Below, piece after piece: positions 7,815 through 28,250 of a stretch of 37,746 bases of DNA. This DNA is from Planctomycetota bacterium (GTDB lineage: Bacteria > Planctomycetota > Phycisphaerae > UBA1845 > Fen-1342), in contig JACZRH010000005.1 in the NCBI GenBank assembly GCA_022574815.1, positions 1-37,746 of the forward strand, in the 5' to 3' direction. Each line of letters starts with the position of its first letter. Within the stretch, counting starts at the first letter, position 1. Below the pieces are notes generated by a model. The model searched no databases. It was given only the letters and a program-made list of their open reading frames with translations, and was not told the origin of the DNA. The translations under genes and the position numbers were made by a program.

Positions 7815-9230
7815 CTACTTCTTGGATTCGTCCGGCCATTCGAGGCGGCGCGGCCAGATGTCATCGAAATCCGGAACCGCGGGTTTGCCCTCCGGGCGGA
7901 TGTGGGCGAACAGCGTGTCTTTGGCCTTCTCGTAGGCCACGCGGCCGTTCACGATCGAGTAGTGTACGAGCGTCATGTAGTGCAGGACGTCGCCGTCGGC
8001 GATGATGATGTCCGCGTCCTTTCCGATCTCGAGCGAGCCGACGCGGTCGTCGATGCCCAGAATCCGGGCGGCGTCGATCGTGATCGCCTTAAGCGCATCT
8101 TCGTCACTCAACCCGCCGCGGACGGCGAAGGCGGCCTCCATGTTCAGGTGCAGCAGGTCGCGGCCGGCGCCGCCCCAGAGTGTGATAGATGTGCTGGCCG
8201 GGATGATTGCGATGCGCACGCCGTGTTCGTGCAGGATGCGGGCGTTTTCGATCGTCGCGCCGGTCGGGCGGTTGAGCCGTTCGTTGGGATCGACAACGCG
8301 GCGCGTGTTGAGGATCACTCTGACGTTGGCCCGCGCCAGCTCGTCGGCCACGAGCCAGCCTTCGTACGCCCCACGGATCACCAGCTCGAAGCCAAACTGC
8401 CGCGACAGCTCGCTCAGATCGAGCAACGGGTGCATCGTATTGGCCGACGCCGTTGCGACGGTCTCATGCTGCATCAGCTTGCGGTATTTCTCGTACTTGC
8501 CCTTCAGCCATTTCTTGTCCGGCGGCTTGGCTTCCTTGTTGCGGAGTTTCTCGAGTTCGTGGCGGCGCAGATCGCGAAGATAATTCCGCACGCGCTCGAA
8601 ATCCGCCCGCACCTGGGCACGTTCGAGTGGCTTTCGCGAAGAGTAGCTGAGCGTCGTAAAGACATCGCGGCGCAGGACGATGTCGTCGACCGATCCGAAT
8701 GTCATCTTGACCGCGTGTTTGCCCGCCAGCCCGCTCGTGATCCCGCCCGCGAGTGCGAGGTTCATGCTCAGGCCGTAAACGTCCGACGCGTCATCGGGGT
8801 TCTTGGTGTCGTGAATGCCGGTGGTCCGCACGGCGACAAGCCCGGGGTAGACATACATGCCGCGCGCGTCGACCACCTCGCATTCCGCGGGAAGCTGCAC
8901 GCCGCCGCCCATCGCCACGATGCGGCCGTTCTTCGAAAGCACCGTCGCGCCTTCGAGCACCGGCCCGGTCACGGTGTGTACGCGTCCGTTGATCACGGCG
9001 AGGTATCGATCCGGCTCGCGGTCGGCCGGCGCGCTGGTCGTGGTCGTGGTCGTCGTCGTGGCAGCGGTACTTTCGACGGGCCGCGATGTCTGTGCCTGCA
9101 ACCGTGGGATGAGCAGGCATGCAAACAGCGCGACGATAGCGCGTCGCCGCGGCGCAACGCACCAACCTGCGAACCCACCGCGTTCGGACACGTAGCCAAG
9201 GCCGGTGATCACTCGAAACGCGCGACTCAT
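7815..9230 (-). CDS. Amidohydrolase-like protein lacking HxH (operon gene 8)
   Basis: 471 aa, last gene of the eight-gene amidohydrolase series. It has an N-terminal signal sequence (IVALFACLLIPRLQAQ), a run of eight threonines as linker, and the N-terminal beta-sandwich of imidazolonepropionase-like amidohydrolases (VINGRVHTVTGPVLEGATV). The barrel's first strand reads YVYPGLVAVRTTG: the two metal-binding His of PGxxDxHxH are gone. The later region still has the family's shape (IENARILHEHGVRIAIIP) and the C-terminal composite domain AARILGIDDRVGSLEIGKDAD is intact. A charged Lys/Glu/Arg insert (about residues 215-250) interrupts the barrel. The ATG overlaps the previous gene's TGA (ATGA), implying coupled translation. 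Probably exported and not a hydrolase by the usual mechanism. Confidence 0.85.
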   Translation of the reverse strand: MSRAFRVITGLGYVSERGGFAGWCVAPRRRAIVALFACLLIPRLQAQTSRPVESTAATTTTTTTTSAPADREPDRYLAVINGRVHTVTGPVLEGATVLSKNGRIVAMGGGVQLPAECEVVDARGMYVYPGLVAVRTTGIHDTKNPDDASDVYGLSMNLALAGGITSGLAGKHAVKMTFGSVDDIVLRRDVFTTLSYSSRKPLERAQVRADFERVRNYLRDLRRHELEKLRNKEAKPPDKKWLKGKYEKYRKLMQHETVATASANTMHPLLDLSELSRQFGFELVIRGAYEGWLVADELARANVRVILNTRRVVDPNERLNRPTGATIENARILHEHGVRIAIIPASTSITLWGGAGRDLLHLNMEAAFAVRGGLSDEDALKAITIDAARILGIDDRVGSLEIGKDADIIIADGDVLHYMTLVHYSIVNGRVAYEKAKDTLFAHIRPEGKPAVPDFDDIWPRRLEWPDESKK

Positions 9231-10534
9231 TCTCTCAGATCCGCTTCATGAACAATCTCGCCTGCGATCATGACCTCACGAACACGCGCGAGCGGGTCGA
9301 GCGGGTCCCGATCGAGAAAGATCAGGTCCGCGTCCTTGCCCTTCTCGATGCTCCCCAAACGCTCCTCCAGACCCAGCAACCGCGCCGGATGCAGCGTGAC
9401 CGACTGCAATGCCGCTTCGCGCGACCATCCGTCGCGCACCAGACCCGCGAGCCGCTCCAGAATCCGCCGATGCTCTTGCGCGGAGTCGCTCGCGGGAATC
9501 GCCGAGACTTCGCAGCCGGCGCGGCTCAGCGCGCGAACGACGTGAATGCGCTCGGTCGAGTAAGGAATTCGATGCAGGTGCGGCCAGAGCACGACCCGCG
9601 CCTTGCGCTCGCCCAGGGTTTCGACGACGCGGTAGAAATCCGTCTGCGTGCGGTTTCGCAACAGGAAGGCGTGCGCAATCTCGTACTCATCGAGCACGTC
9701 AGCCATGTGCAAGACGTCCGCGGCGCGGCGAACCTCGATCAGGGCGAACAGGCCCTCCTTCTTTTGAATGAGATCGACCAGCGGCTGGTAGGGCTTGTTG
9801 ATGGCCGGCGGCTTGAACGCCGGCTGCGACGCCGGGGCGGTCGTGGTTGTGGGTTGTGAGGTGGGTTTTTTGCCGGGTTTTTTGGCGGCTTTGGGCGGCT
9901 TCTTCGCTTTTTTCTGCTTTTCCTCGAACGCTTTGCGCGCCTTTTCGATCTTCTCGATCTCCTTCTTCGCTTTCTCGAGCGCGGCGCGCAAGACGGGAGT
10001 TTCCCACGAAACCTTCAAATATGCCGGCGACAGCAGCGTGCGTGTCGCGGGCTCGCCGGCCGTGCGGACCACGACGGCCCGCCCCGGAATGCCCGTGCCC
10101 GCCGGTGCGATGGCCAAGGCCGTGTAACCCGCGTCCAGCAGATCGCTGCGTTGCGCGTCGCGCGGGAAGAACTCGCCCGCCGCGCTCAGATGCCCCCGCA
10201 CGCCACTGCGGTTGTAGCGGCCCAGTCCGTAGCGGCTGTGGGCGCTGATCAACCCCGGCATCACGGTCCGGTCGCGGGCGTCGATGACTTTCGCATTCTT
10301 CGGGTATTCGAGGTTCCGCCCGACGTTACGCACCTTGCCGTCCGCGATGACGATGACGCCGTTGGCGATCTCCTTGCCAGTGATCGTGATGGTGTTGCCG
10401 GTGAGGACGACGACGAAGCGCTCTTCGCCGTCGGCACCCTCTCCCACGATGCTGTCGGCCGCGACCGATTGCGGCGGGGAGGCATGCGCGAAAGGAGCGA
10501 GAGCCACCATGACTAGCGCGCCAGCGCTCAGCAC
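9227..10534 (-). CDS. Amidohydrolase-like protein with degenerate HxH (operon gene 7)
   Basis: 435 aa from a GTG at 10534, with a short signal peptide ending AHA (MLSAGALVMVALAPFAHA). In TVMPGLISAHSRYG only the first His of HxH remains. The middle carries a Lys/Ala/Pro-rich, probably coiled or disordered insert (about residues 185-240, containing KKAKKPPKAAKKPGKK and a TTTTAPASQP stretch). The rest keeps the pattern shared with its neighbours: VRRAADVLHMADVLDEYEI, then LLGLEERLGSIEKGKDADL at the C-terminus. Its stop overlaps the start of the next gene by four bases. It is separated from the preceding gene by 104 bp containing a GC hairpin. Inferred to be an exported pseudoenzyme or a hydrolase with altered chemistry. 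Confidence 0.85.
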   Translation of the reverse strand: MLSAGALVMVALAPFAHASPPQSVAADSIVGEGADGEERFVVVLTGNTITITGKEIANGVIVIADGKVRNVGRNLEYPKNAKVIDARDRTVMPGLISAHSRYGLGRYNRSGVRGHLSAAGEFFPRDAQRSDLLDAGYTALAIAPAGTGIPGRAVVVRTAGEPATRTLLSPAYLKVSWETPVLRAALEKAKKEIEKIEKARKAFEEKQKKAKKPPKAAKKPGKKPTSQPTTTTAPASQPAFKPPAINKPYQPLVDLIQKKEGLFALIEVRRAADVLHMADVLDEYEIAHAFLLRNRTQTDFYRVVETLGERKARVVLWPHLHRIPYSTERIHVVRALSRAGCEVSAIPASDSAQEHRRILERLAGLVRDGWSREAALQSVTLHPARLLGLEERLGSIEKGKDADLIFLDRDPLDPLARVREVMIAGEIVHEADLRE

Positions 10535-10587
10535 TCGTGCCAGACGCGCGTGCGCGAATGTGCGACGCGCGCTGCTGCGCGAGACCG

Positions 10588-10605
10588 CGCGGGCTGAAGC
10601 CCGCG
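10588..10605. repeat. GC hairpin between operon genes 6 and 7
   Basis: Palindrome CGCGGGCT (10588-10595) and AGCCCGCG (10598-10605) around GA. It lies in the only long gap (104 bp) within the second half of the amidohydrolase series and has no T-run on either side. It may attenuate transcription, protect mRNA ends, or be a dispersed palindrome like the one at 28214-28236. Confidence 0.45.
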
Positions 10606-10638
10606 GCTCGGAGGGGGCCTGCGGTTTTGAGCGTTCGT

Positions 10639-11982
10639 TTAGAATCGCCTGATCCCCTTGGTTCCGTCGTGTACGACCTTGCCGTCGATCACCGTGATCA
10701 GGCAGGCCGACCGCGGATCGAGCGGATCACCGGTCCAGATTCCGAAATCGGCGTCCTTGCCGGCCTCGATACTCCCGATCCGATCATGCACACCCAGTGC
10801 TTCGGCCGGTATCTGCGTGACGCCGCGCAACGCCGGGTACGGCAGCCACCCGTACCAACAGGCCATGGCGGCTTGAAAGCTGAGCTCGTGTTGCGGGATG
10901 CCGCCGAAGCCGACCGCATCGGTGTTGATTCCGAGCCGCCGCACACCGTTCTTCCACCAGCCCGAGGCGTTTCCGATCATGCGGCGGGCGGTGCGGTCGA
11001 ACTCATACTGCCGCGGGCCGTTGATGGTCCAGCAATCGGTTTTGGCGACGATCGGCCCGACTTTCCAGGCGTTGAACGTGCAATGGTCCAGGACGGTCCA
11101 CAGTTTCATTCCCAGGTGATACTGTTCGACGGTCGTGAGCAGGACCTGATACCACTGCGTGTGAACGGAGAGTGGATACTCGCCACGGAACAGCCCGCGG
11201 AAGTCGTCGAAGATCGGGTCGTATTCGGGCTTTTCGGCGGTCTCGCCCTTCTCGAAGGCCTCCCAAGCCCGGTGGTAAGCGCGGGCCTTGAGCAAGGTCT
11301 GCCGCGTGTTCCAATTCATGAACATCCGCCGCACGCCGCCGAAATACCATTCCGGGTTGCCGGCCTGGGCGATTTTGAGCGAGCCGGGCGAACGCATGAA
11401 GACTTCGTCGGGATTGGCGCCGGCGGTCTTGACGATGCTGCCGAAGCCGCTGATGTTGGTTCCACTGCCGGGGATAAACAGGACGGCCGTCACGCCGCCG
11501 CTCGCAGCGCGTTTGATGCGAGCGTTTCCGGGCTCGATTCCGGCGCGCGTGTTCAAGCCGGGATTGGTCAGATAGACCATGTCGTTAAAGTCGCCGCCGG
11601 CGGTGTGGTTGTGCGCGTCGACCAAACCGGGAACGAGCCAGGCCTCGGGCATTTCGACTACGCGGTAGCCGTCGGGGACCTCCACCGATTCACTCGGCCC
11701 GACGGCCTCGATCCGGCCGCCCTTGACGAGCACGGTCGCGTTGTTCACGACGCTGTCGCGATCGTCCATGCTGACGACCTTGGCTACGCGGAAGGCGAGC
11801 GGCCGCGGACCGGTCGGTTCGGCGCTATCCGGTGGGTCCGGCGCCGTCTGAGCCGCCGCCGGAAGAGCAAGCATCGGATTCAGCGTAACGAACAGGGATA
11901 CCGCCATCGCGAACCGAATGCCCGCGCCGGCCGGCCGCGACGCACTCGATGAACCCTGAACCCTGAACCCTGAACCCTTCAT
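10639..11982 (-). CDS. Amidohydrolase with intact metal site (operon gene 6)
   Basis: 447 aa. This is the member most likely to be a working metal-dependent hydrolase: LVPGLVDAHNHTAGG carries HxH, and later PLSVHTQ, VLDHCTF and GINTDAVG supply the usual barrel His, His and Asp. The C-terminal domain (ALGVHDRIGSIEAGKDADF) is normal. There is no charged insert, unlike most of its neighbours. The signal sequence is VSLFVTLNPMLALPAAAQ. The annotated ATG at 11982 overlaps the previous gene's stop (ATGA), but its first codons are the four-copy heptamer repeat AGGGTTC, so the true start may lie further in. Substrate unknown; family members act on cyclic amides, peptides or related C-N bonds. Probably exported. 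Confidence 0.9.
   Translation of the reverse strand: MKGSGFRVQGSSSASRPAGAGIRFAMAVSLFVTLNPMLALPAAAQTAPDPPDSAEPTGPRPLAFRVAKVVSMDDRDSVVNNATVLVKGGRIEAVGPSESVEVPDGYRVVEMPEAWLVPGLVDAHNHTAGGDFNDMVYLTNPGLNTRAGIEPGNARIKRAASGGVTAVLFIPGSGTNISGFGSIVKTAGANPDEVFMRSPGSLKIAQAGNPEWYFGGVRRMFMNWNTRQTLLKARAYHRAWEAFEKGETAEKPEYDPIFDDFRGLFRGEYPLSVHTQWYQVLLTTVEQYHLGMKLWTVLDHCTFNAWKVGPIVAKTDCWTINGPRQYEFDRTARRMIGNASGWWKNGVRRLGINTDAVGFGGIPQHELSFQAAMACWYGWLPYPALRGVTQIPAEALGVHDRIGSIEAGKDADFGIWTGDPLDPRSACLITVIDGKVVHDGTKGIRRF
11951..11978 (-). repeat. Heptamer repeat R1, four perfect copies of AGGGTTC
   Basis: On the plus strand GAACCCT is repeated four times without a mismatch (11951-57, 58-64, 65-71, 72-78). It lies immediately inside the annotated start of the intact amidohydrolase gene and is translated as its second to ninth residues or so (KGSGFRVQG). 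Period 7 matches repeats R2-R4 in the window although the unit differs. Confidence 0.9.
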
Positions 11983-14843
11983 CGTTTCAGCTCCGCAACC
12001 TCGCGACCGCCAACAATCACCCGTTCCAGCCGACCGGCCGCGTCAAACGGGTGGCCGGTGTAGATCAGGATGTCGGCGTCCTTGCCGACTTCGAGCGTGC
12101 CGACCCGGTCGTCGATGCCGTACATACGCGCCGCGTCCACCGTCAAGGCCCGCAGCGCCGCGTCGCCGCCGAGGCCCTGTTGGACGGCGTACAAACCCAT
12201 CAGCGGCAACGCCCGCGCCCCGTCTTCCGCATCGCTCTGCAGCGCCACCGGGATGCCTCGGCGACTCAGGTCGGCCGCTTGATTGTACGACACTCGGTCC
12301 CGCGGGCGCAGGATCGTCGGCGGCACGACGACGCCCACCAACGCGCCGCGCCGGCCATTCTCGTCGCTGCCGTCCGCAGCCGCGCGAATTCGCTTTTCCA
12401 ACTCGTCCGAGACATCCGCCGAGTCCTCCCCGCCGAGCAACACCACCCGCAGGCCGTATTCGTCGACCAGCAACTCGAGCGCCGCCTTGATTTGCCCCGC
12501 CGTCCGCGCCTGTACGACGGCCGGAACCTCGCCGGCCAGCAGCGCGCGATACGGCTCGAGCTTCTCGTTGACTTTGGGCGGCTCGGGGCGCCCGTCCTTT
12601 CGGCGGCGGCGGCGCGAGACCTTGAATTCCACCGCGGACTTGTCCGTGCGCGTCGCGGCGAAGCCGACCGAGAACATATCGCCGAGCTTCACCTCGCCGG
12701 CCATGTGATCCTCGCGGTCGAGCTTCGCGTCGATCTCCGGGCGCCCGCTGCCGGTCTCGAAGTCGATTTCCAGATGAACGTCTTCGCCGCTTAATTCGCC
12801 TTCGACGAGGAGCTCATCTTCGGCCTGGGGAATGTTGATTCGCCCCTCAATCCGCGTTCCCGAAAGCTTCAGGGTCGCCGTCCCGGAGAAGTCCTCGGGC
12901 AGCGGCGGACCGCTGACGGTCCATTCCCACGTGCCGGTGATCGGATCGACCTTGCTCTCCTCCTCCTGCTCGACCAGCTCCTCTTTCGGTTTCTGCCCGG
13001 CGGCGACTCCCTTGGCGCGGTCTTCCTCCCATTTCTTCAGCTTCTGGTAGTACTCCTTCCACTTCTTGTCGTACTTCTTCCCCGCTTCGAGAGCCTTGCG
13101 CAACGACTCAACCGATACCAGCGGATCGCTCCCCAGAATGAATTTCATGCCGGTCAACTCGCGAACCAGCATGTCTCGCCGCGATCGGCCGTAGGTCTTC
13201 ACCGCGGCCATACGGCCTCCATAGGAGCCCACCCGGTACGGACTCAGGATGACCGTGGTCACGCCCGCTTCGGCGACCAGCCGCTGCTCGCGCCCGGCCA
13301 CGCCGACGACGCCGTGAATCGGCAGGTCGGGGCCCACGCGCGTGCGATCCCCCTGCAAACCGAGATGCCCGTGGGCGTCAATGAAGCCCGGCATGACGAA
13401 TCCGTGTCGGCCGGCGTCAATCACGCGCGCGAAGGGTGGATGCGGGACGCGGTTTCCGATCGCGCGAATCTTGCCCCCCTCGATCAGCAAAGCTCCGTCA
13501 TGGATGACGCTTCCGTCGCCCACCCAGACGGTGCCGGCTTTCACGACCAACCGGTCGGTGTGCGGTGCCTCAAAAACGCGGCGACCGGCGACGTAAACTT
13601 GCAGGACGTGGCTGCTGATGCCCAGCGGCTCACCGCTGAGCACAAGAAAGTCGGCGTCCTTTCCGGGCGCGAGACTGCCGACACGCTCAGCGACGCCGAG
13701 AATCTCCGCGGGGATGCGCGTGATCGCCGCCAAGGCCCGCTCACGCGGCATGCCGCCGCGCATCGCGAGCGCGGCCACCATACCCAGGTCTTCGCGAGTG
13801 TCCCCTTCTCGGCCGGCCAGCGCGACGCGCGACAGGGCCGGTCGCCCTTCGGCATCGGCCAATCGGCCCGCCGTCGCCGCGCGGGATCGCAGTGCATCGG
13901 GATGCGGACCGAGGTTGGCATCCGCACCGCGATAGCGTTGCTCGAGCCGCAGGACGACGGGCAGGCCAGATTTTTCGAGCGCTTCGACGAGCTCATCGCC
14001 TTCGGTCATGCCAATCAGGTAGCAGCGCCAATCATGCCGTTTTGCGAATGCCAAAGCCCCCTCGATGTCCGCCGCTCGTCGCACTTGAATGCGCAAAGGC
14101 AGCTTCGCCGACCAGGCCTTGGCGAATGAGCGGGCGTGTACGTCGAACATACCGGTTGCCGATCCGACGCCCGCCTCCGCCAGCGCTATCTGCCGCTCCA
14201 ACTCCAGAAACTGCCCGAGCCGCGAGTCCGGCCGCTGCCTGCGGGCCGGCTCGATCGCCACGTCCGACGAAGCGTAGAAAGGAACGTCCACCACGCCGGG
14301 CGGATCGAACACACCGAGATTGATGGTCAGGGCCGATTCGGGCTCGAGCGCGCGTTCGCTCGGCCGGCCGGCCAGCTTCACCGTTGCACCGCGGCCGGAC
14401 ACCAGACGATGCCCGCCGGGGTCGAGGTGAACCGTGGTGGTGCCCCGCGCGAGGAACTCGTCGTAGCGGGCATAGGTGTCGAAGAAGTCGAGAGCCCGAT
14501 ACGCCCCGCTCACGGAGCGTTCTCCTCCGTGACGGCCGCCCAGCGCGCTCCCCGCCGACACGAAACCCGGACAGACCGTCGCGTCGCGCAGGTCGATCAA
14601 CGCCAAGTCCGGCGGTACTTCGAGATCGCGCCCCACCGCGACAATCTTCCCGTCGCGAACAATGATCATGCCGCGTTCGATCGGCCCGGGCTGATCGGCC
14701 GTCACCGGGTAGAGCGCTCTTGCACGCAGGGCGAACGAGGCCCGCGCCGCCGGTTGCTCGTCATCCGCCCGGGCTTCCGCCGGCACGACGACGAGGCAAA
14801 CGATCAGGGCTCGAAACAACCTGACGGCGTAGGCACGCGACAA
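11979..14843 (-). CDS. Fused double amidohydrolase with beta-rich insert (operon gene 5)
   Basis: 954 aa, two complete amidohydrolase units in tandem. Unit 1 (about residues 30-425) starts after a signal sequence ending AEARA; its motif is TVCPGFVSAGSALG, with no HxH, and it ends with ILGVAERVGSLAPGKDADF. Unit 2 (about 430-954) has FVMPGFIDAHGHLG with HxH, and LQSDAEDG where the catalytic Asp belongs, but the central His positions read VVQARTAGQ and LLGGEDSAD, so it may be impaired. Unit 2 carries a Lys/Glu-rich segment (about 570-625) and a beta-rich domain (about 629-734, DPITGTWEWTVSG to VGFAATRTD). The start is a TTG chosen for the strong GAGGAG eight bases upstream. Overlaps the next gene by ATGA. 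Confidence 0.88.
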   Translation of the reverse strand: MSRAYAVRLFRALIVCLVVVPAEARADDEQPAARASFALRARALYPVTADQPGPIERGMIIVRDGKIVAVGRDLEVPPDLALIDLRDATVCPGFVSAGSALGGRHGGERSVSGAYRALDFFDTYARYDEFLARGTTTVHLDPGGHRLVSGRGATVKLAGRPSERALEPESALTINLGVFDPPGVVDVPFYASSDVAIEPARRQRPDSRLGQFLELERQIALAEAGVGSATGMFDVHARSFAKAWSAKLPLRIQVRRAADIEGALAFAKRHDWRCYLIGMTEGDELVEALEKSGLPVVLRLEQRYRGADANLGPHPDALRSRAATAGRLADAEGRPALSRVALAGREGDTREDLGMVAALAMRGGMPRERALAAITRIPAEILGVAERVGSLAPGKDADFLVLSGEPLGISSHVLQVYVAGRRVFEAPHTDRLVVKAGTVWVGDGSVIHDGALLIEGGKIRAIGNRVPHPPFARVIDAGRHGFVMPGFIDAHGHLGLQGDRTRVGPDLPIHGVVGVAGREQRLVAEAGVTTVILSPYRVGSYGGRMAAVKTYGRSRRDMLVRELTGMKFILGSDPLVSVESLRKALEAGKKYDKKWKEYYQKLKKWEEDRAKGVAAGQKPKEELVEQEEESKVDPITGTWEWTVSGPPLPEDFSGTATLKLSGTRIEGRINIPQAEDELLVEGELSGEDVHLEIDFETGSGRPEIDAKLDREDHMAGEVKLGDMFSVGFAATRTDKSAVEFKVSRRRRRKDGRPEPPKVNEKLEPYRALLAGEVPAVVQARTAGQIKAALELLVDEYGLRVVLLGGEDSADVSDELEKRIRAAADGSDENGRRGALVGVVVPPTILRPRDRVSYNQAADLSRRGIPVALQSDAEDGARALPLMGLYAVQQGLGGDAALRALTVDAARMYGIDDRVGTLEVGKDADILIYTGHPFDAAGRLERVIVGGREVAELKR

Positions 14844-14851
14844 GGCCGCAA

Positions 14852-14857
14852 CTCCTC
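14852..14857 (-). promoter_or_regulatory. Ribosome binding site fixing a TTG start
   Basis: GAGGAG on the minus strand (14857-14852) lies eight bases before the TTG at 14843. No ATG or GTG with a comparable site is seen nearby, so it decides the start of the double amidohydrolase gene. It sits in the 37-bp gap after operon gene 4. Confidence 0.7.
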
Positions 14858-14880
14858 AAGTCAATGGTCTGCTCGGTTGT

Positions 14881-16308
14881 TCACTTCTCCGCCGGATCGT
14901 GTTCCGACAGCAACCGCTTCAGCCGGAAGTCCTTGTCCCGCTCGTAGGCCGGGATTCCTTCGATGAAAACCTGCTCGACCACGCTCGTGAAATCGAGCGG
15001 ATCCCCGCTGAAGATCACCAGATGGGCATCCTTGCCGACTTCGATCGACCCCAGGCGCCCTTCCAAACCGAGGATCTTGGCTGGGTTGATCGTGATCGCC
15101 CGCAACGCCACGTCGCGCGCCATCCCCGCACGCACGCAGCGCGCCGCCTGGTAGTTCGGCATGCGCTCGGCCAGAGATGCGTCGGGTCCCGGAACCAAGG
15201 CAAAAAGCAACCCCGCATCCGCAATCCGCTTCGGCACAAATGTCTCGCGCACCTTGCCCGTCAGCGGATCCGTTTCGCGGTGCGTCAAGTCCGGCGGCAG
15301 CACCACCGGCCGCGCCGCCTTCTTCAGCTCCGCGACCGCCTTGAAGCACTCGCCGCCCAACACGAAGACCGATCGGTCCAGGAAGCCGGCGTCGCTTGCG
15401 GTCTTCACGGCGTGGCCGACGTCCATTGCACTGCCGCAGTAGAGAAACGCGCCGAGCGGTTTGGCCACGATCGGCCCGTCTTCCCCGGCCACGCGAACCC
15501 GCCCACCGGTCAGCCGAACCAGATTGAAGTGCTTGTCGTCGATGTCCTCGGCCCGGATGAGATCGCGGCCGCGGTTTCGGGCTTCGGCCGGCCCCACGTC
15601 GATCTTCTTGTCTTTCTCCTTGAGATCCTCCTCGTAGCGCTTTTCAGCCAGCTTGTCGAGATAGTCGTCCAGCTCCAAAAACGTCTCGCGCAGCGTCGCC
15701 ATCTGGGCCATGCGGTCCGAACGCAAGCGCGGCGAGATCGCGATCTTCAGGAACGCCCCCTCCGCAATCGTCATCTCCCCCACCGTCATCCCGATCGGCC
15801 GCACGACCCGACCCAGGCCGCCGATCACCGTGTTGTTGCCCGGAATCACGTGAACCGCCGTGATGCCCAGCCGCAAACAGTCCTCGAAGTACAATTGCGA
15901 GGGGTCGATCGCGTCGGCGACATTGAGGTGCGGCACGACCGGCCGCGCCTCGTTCGCGACGTCCAGGCCCCGCGCCGTACCGACCACGATCATTCCCGGG
16001 AAAACAACCTTGCCGGAAACGTCGTAGACGCGCGCGTCATAAGGCACCTCAACGTCCTTGCCGACCGCGACGATCTTGCCGCGTTCGATCAGCACCGTGC
16101 CCTTCTCAATCGGCTCCCCCACGATCGGGATGATCCGCCCGCCGGTCAACGCAACCTTCTCCGGCGGCGCGCCATTCACCGTGGCCGCAACCAACCCGGC
16201 CAAGACCACAATGCCTGTTTTGCAACAAGCCCGCCGAGCCACAGCCCCTCCACTGGTCCGCCGGCCGCACAATTCGTTATTCGTAATTCGCAATTCGCTA
16301 TTCTTCAT
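14881..16308 (-). CDS. Amidohydrolase-like protein lacking HxH (operon gene 4)
   Basis: 475 aa as annotated from the ATG at 16308. The first 13 residues (MKNSELRITNNEL) are simply the heptamer repeat read in frame, so the native start may be downstream, before the signal sequence TGIVVLAGLVAATVNGA. The motif region is VVFPGMIVVGTARG: both metal His are missing. The family's N-terminal sandwich (LTGGRIIPIVGEPIEKGTVL) and C-terminal ILGLEGRLGSIEVGKDAHL are intact. A charged helix (about residues 210-240, LDDYLDKLAEKRYEEDLKEK) resembles inserts in other members. The gene overlaps the end of the preceding one by 11 bases. Inferred exported pseudo-amidohydrolase. Confidence 0.85.
   Translation of the reverse strand: MKNSELRITNNELCGRRTSGGAVARRACCKTGIVVLAGLVAATVNGAPPEKVALTGGRIIPIVGEPIEKGTVLIERGKIVAVGKDVEVPYDARVYDVSGKVVFPGMIVVGTARGLDVANEARPVVPHLNVADAIDPSQLYFEDCLRLGITAVHVIPGNNTVIGGLGRVVRPIGMTVGEMTIAEGAFLKIAISPRLRSDRMAQMATLRETFLELDDYLDKLAEKRYEEDLKEKDKKIDVGPAEARNRGRDLIRAEDIDDKHFNLVRLTGGRVRVAGEDGPIVAKPLGAFLYCGSAMDVGHAVKTASDAGFLDRSVFVLGGECFKAVAELKKAARPVVLPPDLTHRETDPLTGKVRETFVPKRIADAGLLFALVPGPDASLAERMPNYQAARCVRAGMARDVALRAITINPAKILGLEGRLGSIEVGKDAHLVIFSGDPLDFTSVVEQVFIEGIPAYERDKDFRLKRLLSEHDPAEK
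16270..16304 (-). repeat. Heptamer repeat R2 at a gene junction
   Basis: Five period-7 units on the plus strand: CAATTCG, TTATTCG, TAATTCG, CAATTCG, CTATTCT. On the coding (minus) strand the array begins with GAATAG, which contains the TAG stop of operon gene 3, and the ATG of operon gene 4 lies just before it. It is clearly richer in A+T than the surrounding sequence. Confidence 0.9.
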
Positions 16309-17758
16309 ACACCACCTGCCCGTCGATCATCACCAGCCAAACGCGACTGGTCGGGTCGAAAGGTTCCGCGCTCCAAATCACCAGGTCCGCCGCCTTTCCG
16401 GGCTCGAGCACGCCGACCTGATCGGCAACACCGATCAGCTCCGCCGCCGAAGCGGTGATCGCCTTCAACGCTTCGTCTTCTGAAAGTCCGTAACGAACGG
16501 CGAACATCCCCTGCCGAACGAGTCCTTCCTCGCCGCGCAGCTCGTGCGCCGTCAGCGCAAAACGCACGCCGGCGTCCAGGAGCTGCTTCGCCGTATTGAG
16601 TCGCGGATCATCGGCTTCGCCGCTGCGCCGCCGATATCCGCGAGGTGTGACGTAGATCGGACCGAAAATCACCGGCACGTCGGCCGCCCGCAACTGGGCC
16701 AGACACTGATACGCCTCGATCCCTTCCTCCAAGGTGAATCGAAGCTCGAACTCCTTCGCCAGACGTAGGGCACTGAAAATGTCGTGCTGTTTGCGGGCCT
16801 GAATCCGCAAAGGAACTTCGCCGGCAAGCACCTGACGGAGGATCGGCAGCGCCGCCGCGGGCGGGGTGTCGGCACCGTGCAGCGCCAGGCCCTTGCCGTC
16901 GCGCCGCGCGTCGTAAAAGGCCTTTCGAAAAACGAAATCGACTCCCATCCGCGTGGTCGGGCGGCGTGTGTGAAAAGTGGGCTGCGGGCCGCGCCGGGGC
17001 GGCAGTCGATTGCGGCGCCCGCGCCGGCTAGGGTCACCGCCCATCGTCGCCTTCGCCGCCGCCGCCCTGCGGACGATGCGCGAGCCGAGCGGCCCGCCGG
17101 TCTTGACGATCGCGCCGCGCGTCCCGATCACACTCGCCGAGTCGGGCGAAACGAACACCGTCGTCACACCCTCCTTCAAGAGCCGGTCAAAGTCGTTCGA
17201 CAGCAGGTTGACCGAGTCGATCACGAACAGGTGCGGAATCACCTCGGAGGAGTGCTCGGCCCAGGATAAGCTCGCCGACGGACCCACCGAGCCCATCTCG
17301 CCATCGGCACCGTCGGCGGCATCGGCACCCAGGTGATTGAGCGGATCGCCGTAGCGAGTCGCATGGATCACGCCGTCACAACCGCACGCACGTTTGTGCT
17401 CCTGCGCCGCCCGCAGGAATTCGTCGAGCGCGGCGCGGATACTCCCCCGCCCGAAGCGCGGCGGCGACTGCGGGACCTGGAAATCGAGCGCACACGAGGC
17501 CTCTACCAGGCCCGGCGTGATCACGCCGCCGGGTTTCTCAATCACCCGCGCGCCCTCGGGAACAGCGAGGTCGTTTCCAACGGCCTCGATCTTCCCGTCA
17601 CGCACGACGATTGTGGCGGCACTCAACACTTCGCCCGAAACGGTGTGTACACGCATGGCTTTGAGGACGACCACGTCGGCGCTGAGAGTCGCCGCACTCA
17701 GCCAGGCTGCCGCCGCCGGCAACATCACACGCCCTACTGTGAGTTTCCCGTTTCGCAT
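16298..17758 (-). CDS. Amidohydrolase-like protein lacking HxH (operon gene 3)
   Basis: 486 aa. The signal sequence is VGRVMLPAAAAWLSAATLSA. The motif region is VITPGLVEASCALD, with no HxH. The barrel pattern seen across the operon is clear: LRIQARKQHDIFSALRLAKE, then VPVIFGPIYVTPRGY, AGVRFALTAHEL, and the C-terminal LIGVADQVGVLEPGKAADL. An Arg/Pro-rich insert (about residues 240-275, DPSRRGRRNRLPPRRGPQ) replaces the Lys/Glu-rich inserts of others. Its ATG overlaps the stop of the preceding gene (TAATG). The metal site is absent, so ordinary amidohydrolase activity is unlikely; a structural or ligand-binding role is inferred. Confidence 0.86.
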   Translation of the reverse strand: MRNGKLTVGRVMLPAAAAWLSAATLSADVVVLKAMRVHTVSGEVLSAATIVVRDGKIEAVGNDLAVPEGARVIEKPGGVITPGLVEASCALDFQVPQSPPRFGRGSIRAALDEFLRAAQEHKRACGCDGVIHATRYGDPLNHLGADAADGADGEMGSVGPSASLSWAEHSSEVIPHLFVIDSVNLLSNDFDRLLKEGVTTVFVSPDSASVIGTRGAIVKTGGPLGSRIVRRAAAAKATMGGDPSRRGRRNRLPPRRGPQPTFHTRRPTTRMGVDFVFRKAFYDARRDGKGLALHGADTPPAAALPILRQVLAGEVPLRIQARKQHDIFSALRLAKEFELRFTLEEGIEAYQCLAQLRAADVPVIFGPIYVTPRGYRRRSGEADDPRLNTAKQLLDAGVRFALTAHELRGEEGLVRQGMFAVRYGLSEDEALKAITASAAELIGVADQVGVLEPGKAADLVIWSAEPFDPTSRVWLVMIDGQVVYEE

Positions 17759-18978
17759 TACCGCTCCCGCTGCTCACTTGGCTCGGCGACGAACACGCGC
17801 CGACCGCCTACGTACACCGCCAACACGCGCGATCGCAAATCCAGCGGGTCGCCGGAAAAGACCACCAGATCTGCCAGCCGTCCGCGTTCGATCGATCCGA
17901 CGCGGTCGGCGATTCCCAACGCCGTCGCCGGGGCGCTGGTGATCGCCCGTCGCGCCGCGGCCGGGCTCATCCCGTTGCGCACCGCGACCGCGGCGGCCGT
18001 GCGCAGGCTGTCGGCCGCTCGACCCGGCAGGCCGCCCGCGATCGTCACCCGCACGCCGGCGCGCTCGAACACGCCGGCGGCCGACGCGTCGCGCGGGGAC
18101 GAAGAGAACTCATACGGATCAACGATCACACCGATGCCGGCGGCCGCGATCTCGCGCGCAACCGCCCGCGCATCGTGCGTGTGCCGCAACGTCAGCTTCA
18201 GCCCGTGGGCCTTGATCAGGTCTAACGCCACCAGCACGTCCGCGCCGCTCGGCGTCGTCATAATGCCGGCGAGCTTGCCCCGCGTGAATTGCGCGAGCGC
18301 TGCCGGCCCGCCGCTTGCGTCGTCGCGCGCCCGTTGCAGCTCGCCGCGTAGCATCGCGATCGCGCCGGCCCGCGAGGTCGGCTCGCGGTCCGGTTGAAAG
18401 ACCGCGGGCGCGAGCGACAGCTTCAGCGGCCCCGCGTCGTCGAGCAGGATCGGTCTGGTGCGCGGCCCCGAGGTCTGGCAAATCGCAATTCGCCCGCCGA
18501 TCAGGTTGTCGTCCTTGGGAACCAGGGCAAACGTCGTCACGCCGGCCCGCAACGCCACCCCCAATTGAGCGTGGTAGCGGTCGAAGGCATCTTTGGCAAC
18601 GGCCTCCGGCTGAAGCGCACTGTCCCGCTCGCTCAAGTTGCCCCAGGCACCCAGCGCCGCGTCAATGTCGATCAGACCCGCCGAGATAACGGCGCCGGCG
18701 TACGACTCGCTGGGCGCGCCCACCGGCGCGTCGCCGCCGACCTGAAGAATCTTCGGGTCCTCGATGACCAGCAGGGCGCCCGATTGCAGCTCACCCTCGG
18801 AATTGACGTACGCCGCCGCACGAATGACGTGCGTGCTCGGCTGGGCCGGTGCTGCCGCGGGAAACGCGAAATACGCAAGCAACGCAAGCACGGCGTGGGC
18901 GCACGAGGACGCCGTTACGCCGGGAAAATTGCGAGAACCGGCCCGACGGGCGGGATCGTGCGTCTCGGCGTGGTTCAC
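17758..18978 (-). CDS. Amidohydrolase-like protein lacking HxH (operon gene 2)
   Basis: 406 aa from the GTG at 18978, chosen because it overlaps the previous gene's stop as GTGA; a longer frame reaching 19074 would run into that gene's coding sequence. The signal sequence is AVLALLAYFAFPAAAPAQ. Motif region: VISAGLIDIDAALG, no HxH. Barrel elements: GVTTFALVPKDDNLIGGRIA, LDLIKAHGLKLTLRHTHD, IGVIVDPYEFSSSP and AGVRVTIAGG. The C-terminal domain reads ALGIADRVGSIERGRLADLV. It has no long charged insert. Exported by inference; the catalytic residues of the family are missing. Confidence 0.85.
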   Translation of the reverse strand: MNHAETHDPARRAGSRNFPGVTASSCAHAVLALLAYFAFPAAAPAQPSTHVIRAAAYVNSEGELQSGALLVIEDPKILQVGGDAPVGAPSESYAGAVISAGLIDIDAALGAWGNLSERDSALQPEAVAKDAFDRYHAQLGVALRAGVTTFALVPKDDNLIGGRIAICQTSGPRTRPILLDDAGPLKLSLAPAVFQPDREPTSRAGAIAMLRGELQRARDDASGGPAALAQFTRGKLAGIMTTPSGADVLVALDLIKAHGLKLTLRHTHDARAVAREIAAAGIGVIVDPYEFSSSPRDASAAGVFERAGVRVTIAGGLPGRAADSLRTAAAVAVRNGMSPAAARRAITSAPATALGIADRVGSIERGRLADLVVFSGDPLDLRSRVLAVYVGGRRVFVAEPSEQRER

Positions 18979-20495
18979 TCCGAGTCCTCCGCGTCGTCTG
19001 CCCGATAGACTTCGACGCCCCCGACAAACACGCGCTCGACCCTGGCATCGGGAGCAAACGGGTGCGCACTCCAAAGCACGAGGTCCGCCGACAATCCACG
19101 GCGGACGCGGCCGATGCGCGCCTCCAGACCGAGCAGGCGCGCGGCCCCGGAGGTCAGCGCCGTGAGAGCCGCGTCGTTATCGAATCCATGGCCGGCCTCG
19201 CGCGCCGCGCGCAGCGCCAAGTGCCGGGTAGGCGACGCGCCCTCACGTCCCGGGCCGGAACCGAGATAGACCTCCACCCCGGCCGCCGCGAGGCGGGCTG
19301 CCGCGTCGGCGCGGTGATGCTGAAGAGGTCCCGCCGAGAATTGCACGGGCGGCGCCGCGCCGCCGAGCACGACCGGGATGCTTCGGTCAGCGAGCAGCTC
19401 GGCCACGTGATGGGCGCCGCTGGCACCTTCGAGAATGAGCGCGATGTTGAATTCGTCGGTGATTGCGAGCACATTGAGGATGTCCTCGGGGCGATACACC
19501 TCAACCCGCAACGCGAGCTCCCCATCCAGCACACGCAGGAGCGTTTCCTTCCCGCGGTCCTTCTTGGGTGGCTCGGGCTTCTTCAGCTCGTCCTTGCCTT
19601 TTTTCCCGGCGTCTCTCTTTTTGTCTCGCTCGCCGGCCGGCTTCTCTTTTCCTTTCTTCGCAGCCCGAGCCGCCCCGGCCCCCCGCCCCGGGCCCTTTCG
19701 CCCCGCCCGTTGCGTCGTACCCTTCTTGGCCGACTTCTTGGCCCCGTCTTCCTTTTGCTCGGCCTTTTCCTTCAGCTTGAGTTCGTATTCTTCCAAGTCC
19801 TCCTGGTAATCCTCCCACGCCCGACGGTATTCGACCGCACCCCGCCACAACGCCCGCAATTCGGCCGCGGCCTTGACCCGGCCGAGCGGACCCTGCCCCG
19901 GGTCCAGACCGAGCGCGGCGCAGAGCACGACTTCGTCGTCAAGCACAATCGGTTCGAGCGCGCCGTCCGCCCTCAGTCGCACCGCCGCGCCATACCCGCC
20001 CACACCGTTGAAGGTCCGGGCCGGAAGGTAAACGGTCGTGACCCCCTGCCGCAGTGCCGCTTCAATCTCTTCTTTTGCGTAGCGGTCGAACGCGTCCGCC
20101 GCCTTGCTCCAAGCCGATCGCCCGCCCTGACTGGCGCGCAAGCCCAGCGTGCTCCAGCAATCGATCAACCCCGGCGTGACGAACTTCCCGTCGCCGGCGA
20201 TTCGCACAGCCGACTTGGGCAGCTCCGTTTCGTTGCCGACGGAAGCAATCTTGCCGCGCTGAAAGAAGACGTTGGCGTGCGCGATGCGCTGCCCGTCACC
20301 GACGAGCACCGTGACGTCTTCGATCGCGACGCCGCCCCTTTGCGCCGCGGCGAACGGAACGGCGATCACGAGCACGGCTACCACCAGGACGCAGCGCGCC
20401 CTTGGACCGGTCGCCCGGCCCCTCAAACCAAACCATTGGTGATCGCTCGTGCTCAGCGTGTGCAGTCGGGGTTTCCGTATCGTGTCTTGGTGCAT
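18975..20495 (-). CDS. Amidohydrolase-like protein lacking HxH, Lys-rich insert (operon gene 1)
   Basis: 506 aa from the ATG at 20495; ATG 20588 (GAGG eight bases upstream) or GTG 20597 are real alternatives and the start is uncertain. It is the first gene of the series. A hydrophobic segment (CVLVVAVLVIAVPFAAAQ) follows a basic stretch, consistent with a long signal peptide. Motif region: FVTPGLIDCWSTLG, no HxH. A long Lys/Glu/Gly-rich insert (plus-strand about 19560-19800, with KKGKEKPAGERDKK and similar) probably forms an exposed charged tail or coil. Afterwards the common pattern returns: VYRPEDILNVLAITDEFNI, SIPVVLGGAAPP, LLGLEARIGRVRRGLSADL. It is divergent from dinB across 125 bp, where the operon promoter probably lies. 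Confidence 0.85.
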   Translation of the reverse strand: MHQDTIRKPRLHTLSTSDHQWFGLRGRATGPRARCVLVVAVLVIAVPFAAAQRGGVAIEDVTVLVGDGQRIAHANVFFQRGKIASVGNETELPKSAVRIAGDGKFVTPGLIDCWSTLGLRASQGGRSAWSKAADAFDRYAKEEIEAALRQGVTTVYLPARTFNGVGGYGAAVRLRADGALEPIVLDDEVVLCAALGLDPGQGPLGRVKAAAELRALWRGAVEYRRAWEDYQEDLEEYELKLKEKAEQKEDGAKKSAKKGTTQRAGRKGPGRGAGAARAAKKGKEKPAGERDKKRDAGKKGKDELKKPEPPKKDRGKETLLRVLDGELALRVEVYRPEDILNVLAITDEFNIALILEGASGAHHVAELLADRSIPVVLGGAAPPVQFSAGPLQHHRADAAARLAAAGVEVYLGSGPGREGASPTRHLALRAAREAGHGFDNDAALTALTSGAARLLGLEARIGRVRRGLSADLVLWSAHPFAPDARVERVFVGGVEVYRADDAEDSE

Positions 20496-23657: not shown

Positions 23658-26600
23658 TCAGCGCGGCAATTCGAATTGCACGTTGACGAACTCGAAATCG
23701 TCGAGATCGCCGCGGCAACTGACGGCGCGGATCTGGATCGAGTTCGTGCCTTCGTGCAGCAGGCTCGCTCGAAAGCGGCCGGTGAACTTGCCGAAGCTGC
23801 CGTCGCGCGGGGACGCGTCCAAATGCACGTCGAGCAGCCGGCCGTTGATGCGAATCTCGTGCGGGCACTGCACGCCTTTGGCCATGAGCGTCAGCTTGAC
23901 GCGTCGCCGCAGGTTGTCCGGGAACTGCTCCGCCGCCACTTCGAAGGTCGCCGTGTAGCTGCCGCCCTCCGCCTCTTTCTGGAATTGGCTGTTGATGCGG
24001 CCCTCGAAACGGTTGTTGCCAAGATGGTGGACAACCGGCACGGCCTCCAACGCGATCACACGCGCGTCGAGCGGGCGGAGTCGAAAATCTTGTGCCAGCG
24101 TCCCGCCGCGCAAGCGCGAGCGAGGCACGTTGACCGCGTCCGGCAGATAGCCGCTGCGCGAGGCGGAGACGGCGAAGAACTCGGGGACCTCGGGCACGAA
24201 CATGATGTAGCGCCCGTCCGTACCTGTGACGGCCTCTAACGCCGGTTGATCGGGCAGGTCCAGACGAATGCTCACGCCGCCCAGCGGCTCGCCGGTCTCG
24301 TCATCGCTCGCGAGCCCGCGAATCGTCCCGACCGTGTGGTCGGCCGAGCCGGCTTCGGCCCGGGGCCGCTCGATCGAATACAACGGGAGATAACGGTAGT
24401 AGACCTCGAGCATCAGTGTGCAGAGCGCGGTCTGGTAGACCCGCCCACCGACCGGCGCCCATTCGCCGATCGGATCCCAACTCCCCGCCGATCGTCCGGA
24501 CTTGTTCTGATTGGGGAGCAGCGCGCTCTTGACGCCCTCGTTCCAACGATCCCACAGCATTCCGCCGTGCTGGAAAAGCGCGAGTGTCGCATAGTACCAA
24601 TAGTAGGTGTTGGCCGCTTCCCATTCGGGCAGTTGCTGCGAGATCGCGACCGCCGACACCTGCATTCGCCGATCGTCGTGCGGCACGCCCAGCAATTGCT
24701 GAACGAACATCGCCTCGGCGGTCATGGCCGGCGTGAAGCGCCGTCCGGGCCGGTAGGCGTAGAGCCCGGGGCGCGACGGGTCGCTGACCCGCTCGAGCCA
24801 GTCGCGCGCCCCCGCGATCGCTGCGGGCGCGACGTCGATGCCGGCGATCTGGGCGCTCTTCATCGCCATCACCTGCCAGCCGAGGACCGACGTGTCACCG
24901 GCCTGGCGCGGCTCGTAGCGCCAGCCGCCCTGCCGCTTGTTTCGCGCCCGCTCGATGAAGCGGATCGCCCGGCTGACCGGATCGCGCAGGGCCGGATCGT
25001 GGGTCATGCCAAAGGCCTCGGACATTGCGATGGTCGCGATGCCGTGGCTGTACAGCGTTTCGCCGCCGCGCAGGTCGCCGTTGCGCTCCTGGCGTTCGAG
25101 CAGCCAGCTCAAGCCGCGCTCGACGTTCTCGCGGTACGGGCCGTCCACGACCTGCGAGTGCCCCGCCCCGAGAAAACACAGCAGCGACAGCCCAGTCAGT
25201 GCCACGTCCACTTCGTACCCCGACGTCCCGCCGCACTGCTCGCAGCCGTCATCGAATCCGTCGGCGTCCCAACTACCGTTCGGGCTTTGATGCTCGGCGA
25301 GCCACTTTAAGGCCCGTGCGACGGTACGTTCGGTCTCGTCGCTGCCGCCCATGCGCCTCAGGATGCCCGGCCGCCGCTCGGGCGCTCGATTGGCGTACTT
25401 TCTGGCCGGCGGCTGCATCTCGCTGGGCAGGCGCAGGCCGAGGTCGGGAGCTTTCGGCGCGATGCGTCGGCGATCGACGCCCCAGCGAACCGGGATCGCG
25501 TTGGCCGGCGTCGTCGATCGCACGAGTGCGAGGGCCGCCAAACTGACCGGCTCTCGGGCCGGCTCGCGGCCCCGCGTCGGTTCCACCGCCACCACGCGGG
25601 CGCCCGGCGAGTCCTTCGCTCGCAGTGCGTCGGTCGACACGTTGCCGCGCGGTGACGGCACGTTAACCGACGCGATTTTCGGAGCCGCTTTTTCAGATGT
25701 CGACGCCATCGCACCCGCGGCAGGCGCCGGCAGGGAGAGCTCGGGCAGTGGCGGCATCGCCGGTTTCACGCGCGAGCGGCTGCTCTCAGCGCGCATCATG
25801 TGTTTCGGTGCCGCTTCGGCCGCTACGCTGGTCGTCGCGGCCAAGCTCGATTCGGATCGCCGGACCTCGCGCGCAGCCGGAATCACCTCGACCCGCGAGT
25901 CGGCCGCTGCCGACGCAGCCGGCGGCGCGTCTACGCCCCTTCGCACCGGTTTGGCGTCCACAGCCGCAAGACGCAGCGACGTTTCTCGCGCCGGCTCACC
26001 ACGCGCCGGCCGCTCGGCCGGGAGCTTGACATCCATCGTCGGCGAAATGGCCGGGGCAACTTGCACACGGCGCGATGGATCGAGTTCCGGCCGAGATGGT
26101 GAGCTGTCTCTTGCGACCCGATCGGAGTCCGCACTGAGCATGGAGTCCGGCGGATCGGGCCGCCCCTCGCCGGGCTCAACGCGCGCCAGCGCGGTGGACT
26201 CCGCCTCGGCGTCGGCGCGGGCGCGCACGTCCCGGCGAAGCGGCGTGGCCACCGCCGCCGCCATCCGCCGGCCCGGTTCCGGCGTTGGCTGCGCCTGCGC
26301 CACGTTTTCCATCGGCAGGTCCACGTCGAGCGGGAGTAGCGTTTCGTGCGACACGAGCGTGACTTGCGGGCCGGTCGCGCGGGCCGTGTCCGGCGCGGCG
26401 TCGCGCGGCGCCACATCTTCCGCCGGCATCGGCTGGCGCATCGCCGCATCGGCCAGTGCTTCGTTCTTCCGTGGCACGTCGAGTTCGACCGCCGGCAGCG
26501 CCGGTTGCGAAGTCGGCACCGCGTGCTGAGGCCGGGTCACGGCGGTCGCGAGCTGCGCAGGCGCCGGGGCCGCGCGCTCGGCCTCGACCACCGCGGTTTG

Positions 26601-28196: not shown

Positions 28197-28213
28197 GACG
28201 ATCCTCAAACTGC

Positions 28214-28236
28214 GGCACAGGCTGATAGCCTGTGCC
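28214..28236. repeat. Perfect 10-bp palindrome between exbD and the TonB-like gene
   Basis: GGCACAGGCT (28214-28223), GAT, AGCCTGTGCC (28227-28236). It lies in the 173-bp gap before the giant gene's start, next to the heptamer array. No T-run. Probably a dispersed palindrome or an attenuator; it resembles the hairpins at 10588 and 21831 in having a short loop and a GGCT/AGCC core. Confidence 0.6.
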
Positions 28237-28250
28237 ACACGCGCCGAATC

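Follow-up and report, generated by a model that had tools for sequence, protein, structure and literature searches.

The window analysed here is one whole contig of 37,746 nucleotides (JACZRH010000005.1, assembly GCA_022574815.1) of a Planctomycetota bacterium, whose genome amounts to 4.48 Mb and is 84% complete. Between positions 7815 and 20495 its minus strand carries eight co-oriented and mostly overlapping open reading frames, which together encode nine amidohydrolase domains (PF01979/PF07969), as the initial annotation of this DNA had proposed. The genes are numbered g1 to g8 in the reading direction, g5 being a double gene made up of units 5a and 5b. The overlapping junctions described earlier were all recovered: g1/g2 reads GTGA, g2/g3 reads TAATG, g3 and g4 share 11 bp (ATGAAGAATAG) and g5/g6 reads ATGA, and a 4-bp overlap (AATGAG) joins g7 and g8; the g4/g5 and g6/g7 junctions, however, are gaps of about 37 bp and about 104 bp, respectively. 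The operon is flanked by a divergent DNA polymerase IV gene upstream and by a convergent leucine-rich-repeat gene downstream, thus it stands alone. Promoter and terminator scans of the operon region yielded nothing exceeding chance, and neither frameshifts nor stops were seen in the open reading frames of the window.

Each unit was scored for five metal ligands, the two His of HxH, two further His and an Asp, at positions read from an alignment of the units and their orthologues with 3ooq, a structure from Thermotoga maritima MSB8. The first gene, g1 (18975..20495, minus strand, as are all the following features), is a degenerate amidohydrolase, predicted to be exported, with W,T,E,G,G at these positions, as judged from its open reading frame, PF01979, the ligand table and its FastTree clade. 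Its neighbour g2 (17758..19074; D,A,T,H,G) is recognized as degenerate from the reading frame, Pfam, the ligand table and the reading of the junction, where the GTG of GTGA suggests a translation start near 18978. Pfam and the ligand tables also place g3 (16298..17758; S,A,Q,E,H), in whose orthologues ligand 3 is kept as Gln and ligand 4 as Glu, and, together with the tree, g4 (14881..16308; G,A,Y,L,G), which is among the most conserved units of the cluster, in the degenerate group. Both halves of g5, unit 1 (13554..14843; G,A,Q,G,R; Pfam, ligand table and an AF2 model of the whole protein) and unit 2 (11979..13553; H,H,Q,G,D; Pfam, ligand tables and AF2 model), are degenerate as well. Unit 2 contains a beta-rich insert of about 100 amino acids (DPITGTW..., 12642..12935; residues 637-734 in the AF2 secondary structure) which is conserved in the orthologues, has no Pfam match and gave only weak PDB hits to designed proteins. 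The predicted catalytic subunit is g6 (10639..11982), the sole unit with a complete metal site according to the 3ooq alignment, ligand tables, AF2 and Foldseek. The operon ends with two further degenerate members assigned by Pfam and ligand tables, g7 (9227..10534; H,R,E,N,A) and g8 (7815..9230; R, no H2, S,G,A).

The full set of ligands, HHHHD, occurs in the window only in g6 (H124, H126, H274, H300 and D355; the invariant columns of this protein were computed across 48 sequences). The HxH readings which the initial annotation had listed gene by gene were correct, but its count of seven losses among nine domains rises to eight lost sites when all five ligands are considered. The difference lies in g5 unit 2, where HxH and Asp are kept and the middle histidines are replaced by Gln and Gly. 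Since both middle histidines are missing, this unit was rejected as a second catalytic unit, and the earlier estimate of one or two catalytic subunits is reduced to one in the window. The HxH of g5 unit 2 was present in 18 of 72 distinct relative sequences, none of which had a complete site. In the relatives altogether the site was intact in all 94 complete distinct g6 sequences and in 0 of 556 sequences at the other eight positions; an HxH retained by most relatives, which had been named as the observation that would contradict the proposal, was thus not seen. The motifs used for the database scan with g6 lay outside the metal ligands, therefore the scan did not directly favour an intact g6. 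In two loci (L109 and L110, 'HHHVA') g6 seemed to have lost the site, but this turned out to be a misalignment, as the sequences read EAHTH, INHT, ATHVA and NTDA.

All eight proteins with their nine units exceed the curated Pfam cut-offs, mainly via the C-terminal part, in agreement with membership of the 3ooq subgroup of the amidohydrolase family, which is characterized by a composite beta domain, a barrel and a C-terminal signature. For the three window proteins that were searched (g4, g5 and g6) 3ooq was the best PDB sequence match, and it was also the nearest solved structure by fold for g6 (Foldseek; TM 0.74/0.85) and for g5. The AF2 models were of good quality both for g6 (pLDDT 87, pTM 0.84) and for the double g5 (pLDDT 89, pTM 0.77), and the latter suggests that gene 5, at least, still folds properly although it is degenerate. 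Judged by their sequences, g1-g5, g7 and g8 are homologous by descent to the enzymes and would stand outside the enzyme class. The best scores against the models of imidazolonepropionase (HutI, TIGR01224; 88.9 bits, cut-off 298.15) and Xaa-Pro dipeptidase (NF051886; 82.3 bits, cut-off 500) were, as with other named families, far under the cut-off, consequently no substrate was assigned. A hydrophobic, signal-like N-terminus is present on all eight gene products, where signal sequences on nearly all had been claimed before; by a crude rule, the orthologues carry a signal-like segment in 45-94% of the cases, depending on the position, versus 4.5% of internal segments.

The same units, arranged alike, were found in 13 genomes from the taxonomic order of the window bacterium, in two of them spread over contig pieces, and the closest named relatives that carry the cluster belong to uncultured Planctomycetota such as Phycisphaerae bacterium 8_bin.18. 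Scanning 84,980 species with g6 resulted in 80 loci, nearly all titled Planctomycetota or its subgroups, 52 of which contained the full g1-g8 in order, while most of the others were interrupted by contig ends; the layout was the same in nearly all of 20 further loci, which represent distant families of the phylum, about 20 in number. Among 343 sampled genomes of the phylum g6 was present in 89, across 26 families, and g6, g4 and g8 occurred together in 78 of the 94 genomes having any of the three (Fisher p 1e-62 to 1e-69 for their co-occurrence, although these genomes are related and the p values are not independent-sample probabilities). Gene content and order recurring in dozens of genomes mean that the pattern is not due to chance, and the scattering of the genes in relatives that could have spoken against the proposal was not observed, since they travel together. 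Contiguity is not absolute, because on one chromosome g1-g3 lie apart from g4-g8 with no members lost, and two loci (L083 and L108) have g6 without the upstream genes within the fetched stretch. No widely conserved neighbours of the eight-gene set were found, therefore it seems to be self-contained; conserved neighbours had to be discarded as a functional clue, none being widely shared for the eight-gene set, the pairs or the triples (described below). Fusions of neighbouring units do occur: g5a-g5b wherever gene 5 is complete, g4-g5 in one locus (L060) and g7-g8 in another (L113). Some other families, e.g. f45 and f69, possess 2-5 tandem active copies of the catalytic gene, thus a single active barrel in each complex cannot be a general rule. 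In the loci L118, L119 and L128 and their relatives (families f45 and f87), 3-5 tandem intact catalytic genes, all reading HHHHD, are followed by g7.

In a FastTree phylogeny of 138 rows eight of the nine positions formed their own clades with support of 98-100 and similar internal branching, and the g1 sequences formed one too, except for two long-branch rows. Such position-specific clades indicate that the nine-fold set is older than its spread across the phylum, and, together with the ligand counts, they answer the question raised by the initial annotation about the phylogeny of the HxH loss, which is ancient and position-specific. In a mixture-model tree a single branch with a support of 92 separated the active units from the inactive ones (1 change); when the columns around the metal ligands were omitted, 3 changes were needed. 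The separation is weakened by this omission, and a single inactivation event behind all dead units is possible. Each of the nine units had dN/dS values within 0.01-0.25 in those genome pairs that allowed the calculation, by simple Nei-Gojobori counting with synonymous sites near saturation in the wider pairs; such low values imply that the degenerate units are maintained by purifying selection.

Simpler arrangements of the same kinds of units were also recognized. Within the same phylum there is a pair, in which an intact unit (A) precedes a degenerate one (P). All complete examples combine an intact A with a degenerate P, the latter usually reading H-V/T-T-G-E. There is also a triple (P-A-P), a protein of about 1400 residues with three barrels in the order degenerate-intact-degenerate, and the active barrel was central in 20 of 20 further genomes examined beyond the first. 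As active and dead barrels are here covalently joined in one polypeptide, the triple is the best evidence that they cooperate. Single intact genes with no degenerate relative seen nearby were found in one Bacillota and one actinomycete record (L174 and L175), and Thermotoga 3ooq is likewise a single gene without an adjacent dead partner, which demonstrates that the fold does not need partners. Arranged by the number of dead partners, these forms make up a series of single enzyme (0), pair (1), P-A-P triple (2) and eight-gene set (8), with the window set at the extreme. A plasmid of the alphaproteobacterium Qipengyuania citrea (L173, 2123-7123) carries a pair with an active A, having a lipobox-like N-terminus, and an inactive P; the pair immediately follows a peptide MFS transporter and precedes an FKBP-type prolyl isomerase. 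The order P-A-P was seen on a plasmid of Hymenobacter volaticus (Bacteroidota; L172, 3583-7418), where the P + A part extends over several ORFs/CDS, and is broken or misannotated, and a separate P gene (PGLILPNTTLGL) follows it.

We consider it probable, on the basis of sequence comparison, that the operon encodes an exported heteromeric metallo-hydrolase of the 3ooq type, in which a single barrel is catalytic and the eight others are non-catalytic, with structural or binding functions. In this arrangement g6, carrying the sole complete metal site, would do the chemistry, acting outside the cytoplasm and probably hydrolysing an amide or peptide bond. The metal site would have been lost from the eight other barrels before the cluster spread through the phylum, and these dead barrels would be retained as specialised subunits with no catalytic function, each of them occupying a set position; they could scaffold the assembly, position, gate or tune g6, and shape the access or the binding of the substrate. 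The P-A-P fusion, the fusions of neighbouring units and the co-occurrence of the genes lend indirect support to physical assembly, and many related PDB entries list 8 chains, which, by analogy and together with the homo-octameric ochratoxinase of Aspergillus niger discussed below, makes an oligomer plausible. We infer the binding of the nine units to each other, their division of roles, their location and a peptide-like substrate from this body of observations. Characterised peptidases are known within COG1228, and these, with the one adjacent peptide transporter in Q. citrea, give a slight hint of a peptide-like substrate. A more far-reaching formulation, to which we would give somewhat less than an even chance, is that the window encodes a hitherto undescribed kind of exported machine, a hetero-oligomer in which nine paralogous barrels would take fixed positions, with a single active site among them and the other eight evolved into pseudo-subunits. 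It would be the outcome of an old partnership of a 3ooq-type active hydrolase with an inactivated copy, which would since have diversified into forms with 1, 2 and 8 dead partners in at least three phyla.

The same data were weighed against other explanations. The degenerate barrels might be separate exported ligand-binding proteins (scavengers or sensors) which have the operon and the substrate class in common with g6 and do not assemble with it; the signal-like N-termini and the conserved pocket letters specific to each position (Gln/Glu in g3, Tyr/Leu in g4, Gly in g8), as expected for distinct binding sites, agree with this, but the fixed order with near all-or-none co-occurrence, the covalent linkage between active and dead barrels within the triple and the lack of a conserved transporter or sensor adjoining the cluster do not, hence we regard it as unlikely. 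Even less credit is given to the view that the degenerate units catalyse new reactions, either free of metal or with a different set of ligands, so that the operon would be a multi-step degradation pathway of nine paralogous enzymes. The low dN/dS and the conservation of the substituted positions in some groups (Q and E in g3, E in g1, R in g7) could be explained in this way; several of the replacing residues (Gly, Ala or Leu), however, are incapable of binding metal, others vary among relatives, and the dead flanks recurring in the P-A-P fusion fit the role of a partner better.

Simple decay, i.e. tandem duplicates of one enzyme that have lost their active sites in this strain, would account for the loss of the site in eight of nine units, and the initial annotation had put it forward as the result that would overturn its proposal. 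The same units lack the site in every relative, nevertheless, all units are under purifying selection, and the reading frames are free of frameshifts and stops; decay of a duplicated enzyme array was rejected on the basis of conservation and dN/dS, and we assign it a negligible probability.

A search of the open-access literature yielded no account of a cluster of this kind. The closest solved relative, 3ooq, is a COG1228-like protein for which no published function was found; it is a single intact enzyme, whereas g1-g5, g7 and g8 do not have its metal ligands. The aspartate transcarbamoylase (ATCase) of Pseudomonas needs an inactive pseudo-dihydroorotase (pseudo-DHOase), without which the partner is inactive (PMC7053772). 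This system is like the window set in that a barrel of the same superfamily without DHOase activity is retained for its partner, but it is intracellular and comprises one kind of inactive barrel serving a different enzyme, in contrast to the eight kinds and the active barrel of their own family in the window, which are apparently exported. Dihydroorotase models scored far under the cut-off on the window proteins, and no ATCase partner gene was present among the flanking window genes scanned for families or among any conserved neighbours. The ClpP/ClpR core of chloroplasts and cyanobacteria is built from the products of a multigene family, whose paralogues, some catalytic and others not, all have a fixed place (PMC6508832). 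As in that core, the inactive paralogues of the window set are conserved by position and are under selection; the principle is alike, but the Clp core is a proven ring complex with the unrelated serine protease fold, while the assembly of the window units would be deduced from comparison. A. niger ochratoxinase is a D4 homo-octamer of two-domain metal amidohydrolase subunits (PMC11342369), all identical and active, unlike the nine different barrels of the window with one active member. The window set resembles pseudo-DHOase/ATCase and the Clp core in principle and is a member of neither; what is unusual is the number of pseudo-subunits, in an otherwise known theme of catalytic assemblies with pseudoenzyme subunits.

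If the units do assemble, the ratio of inactive to active paralogues would be unusually high for a bacterial complex, and genes which are now individually annotated as 'amidohydrolase' would gain a role. This automatic annotation is, as far as can be told from the sequences, misleading with regard to activity for eight of the nine units. The versions with one dead, two fused dead and eight dead partners offer a ready series for studying why dead enzymes persist.

Some minor observations should be mentioned. The cluster was also present in records titled Bacillota (L065) and Gemmatimonadota (L055); the Bacillota label is probably wrong, as this genome coincides with one from the phylum of the window. 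Repeat-like DNA was noticed on the minus strand in the N-terminal codons of g6 near 11982 (GGGTTCAGGGTTCAGGG) and of g4 near 16308 (GAATTGCGAATTACGAATAACG), and the start codons of these two genes possibly lie inside an intergenic repeat. Elsewhere in the window (23658-28238, minus strand) a 1526-amino-acid protein is encoded, which combines TolB-like propeller repeats with a carboxypeptidase regulatory domain and also shows a weak terpene-cyclase-like match.
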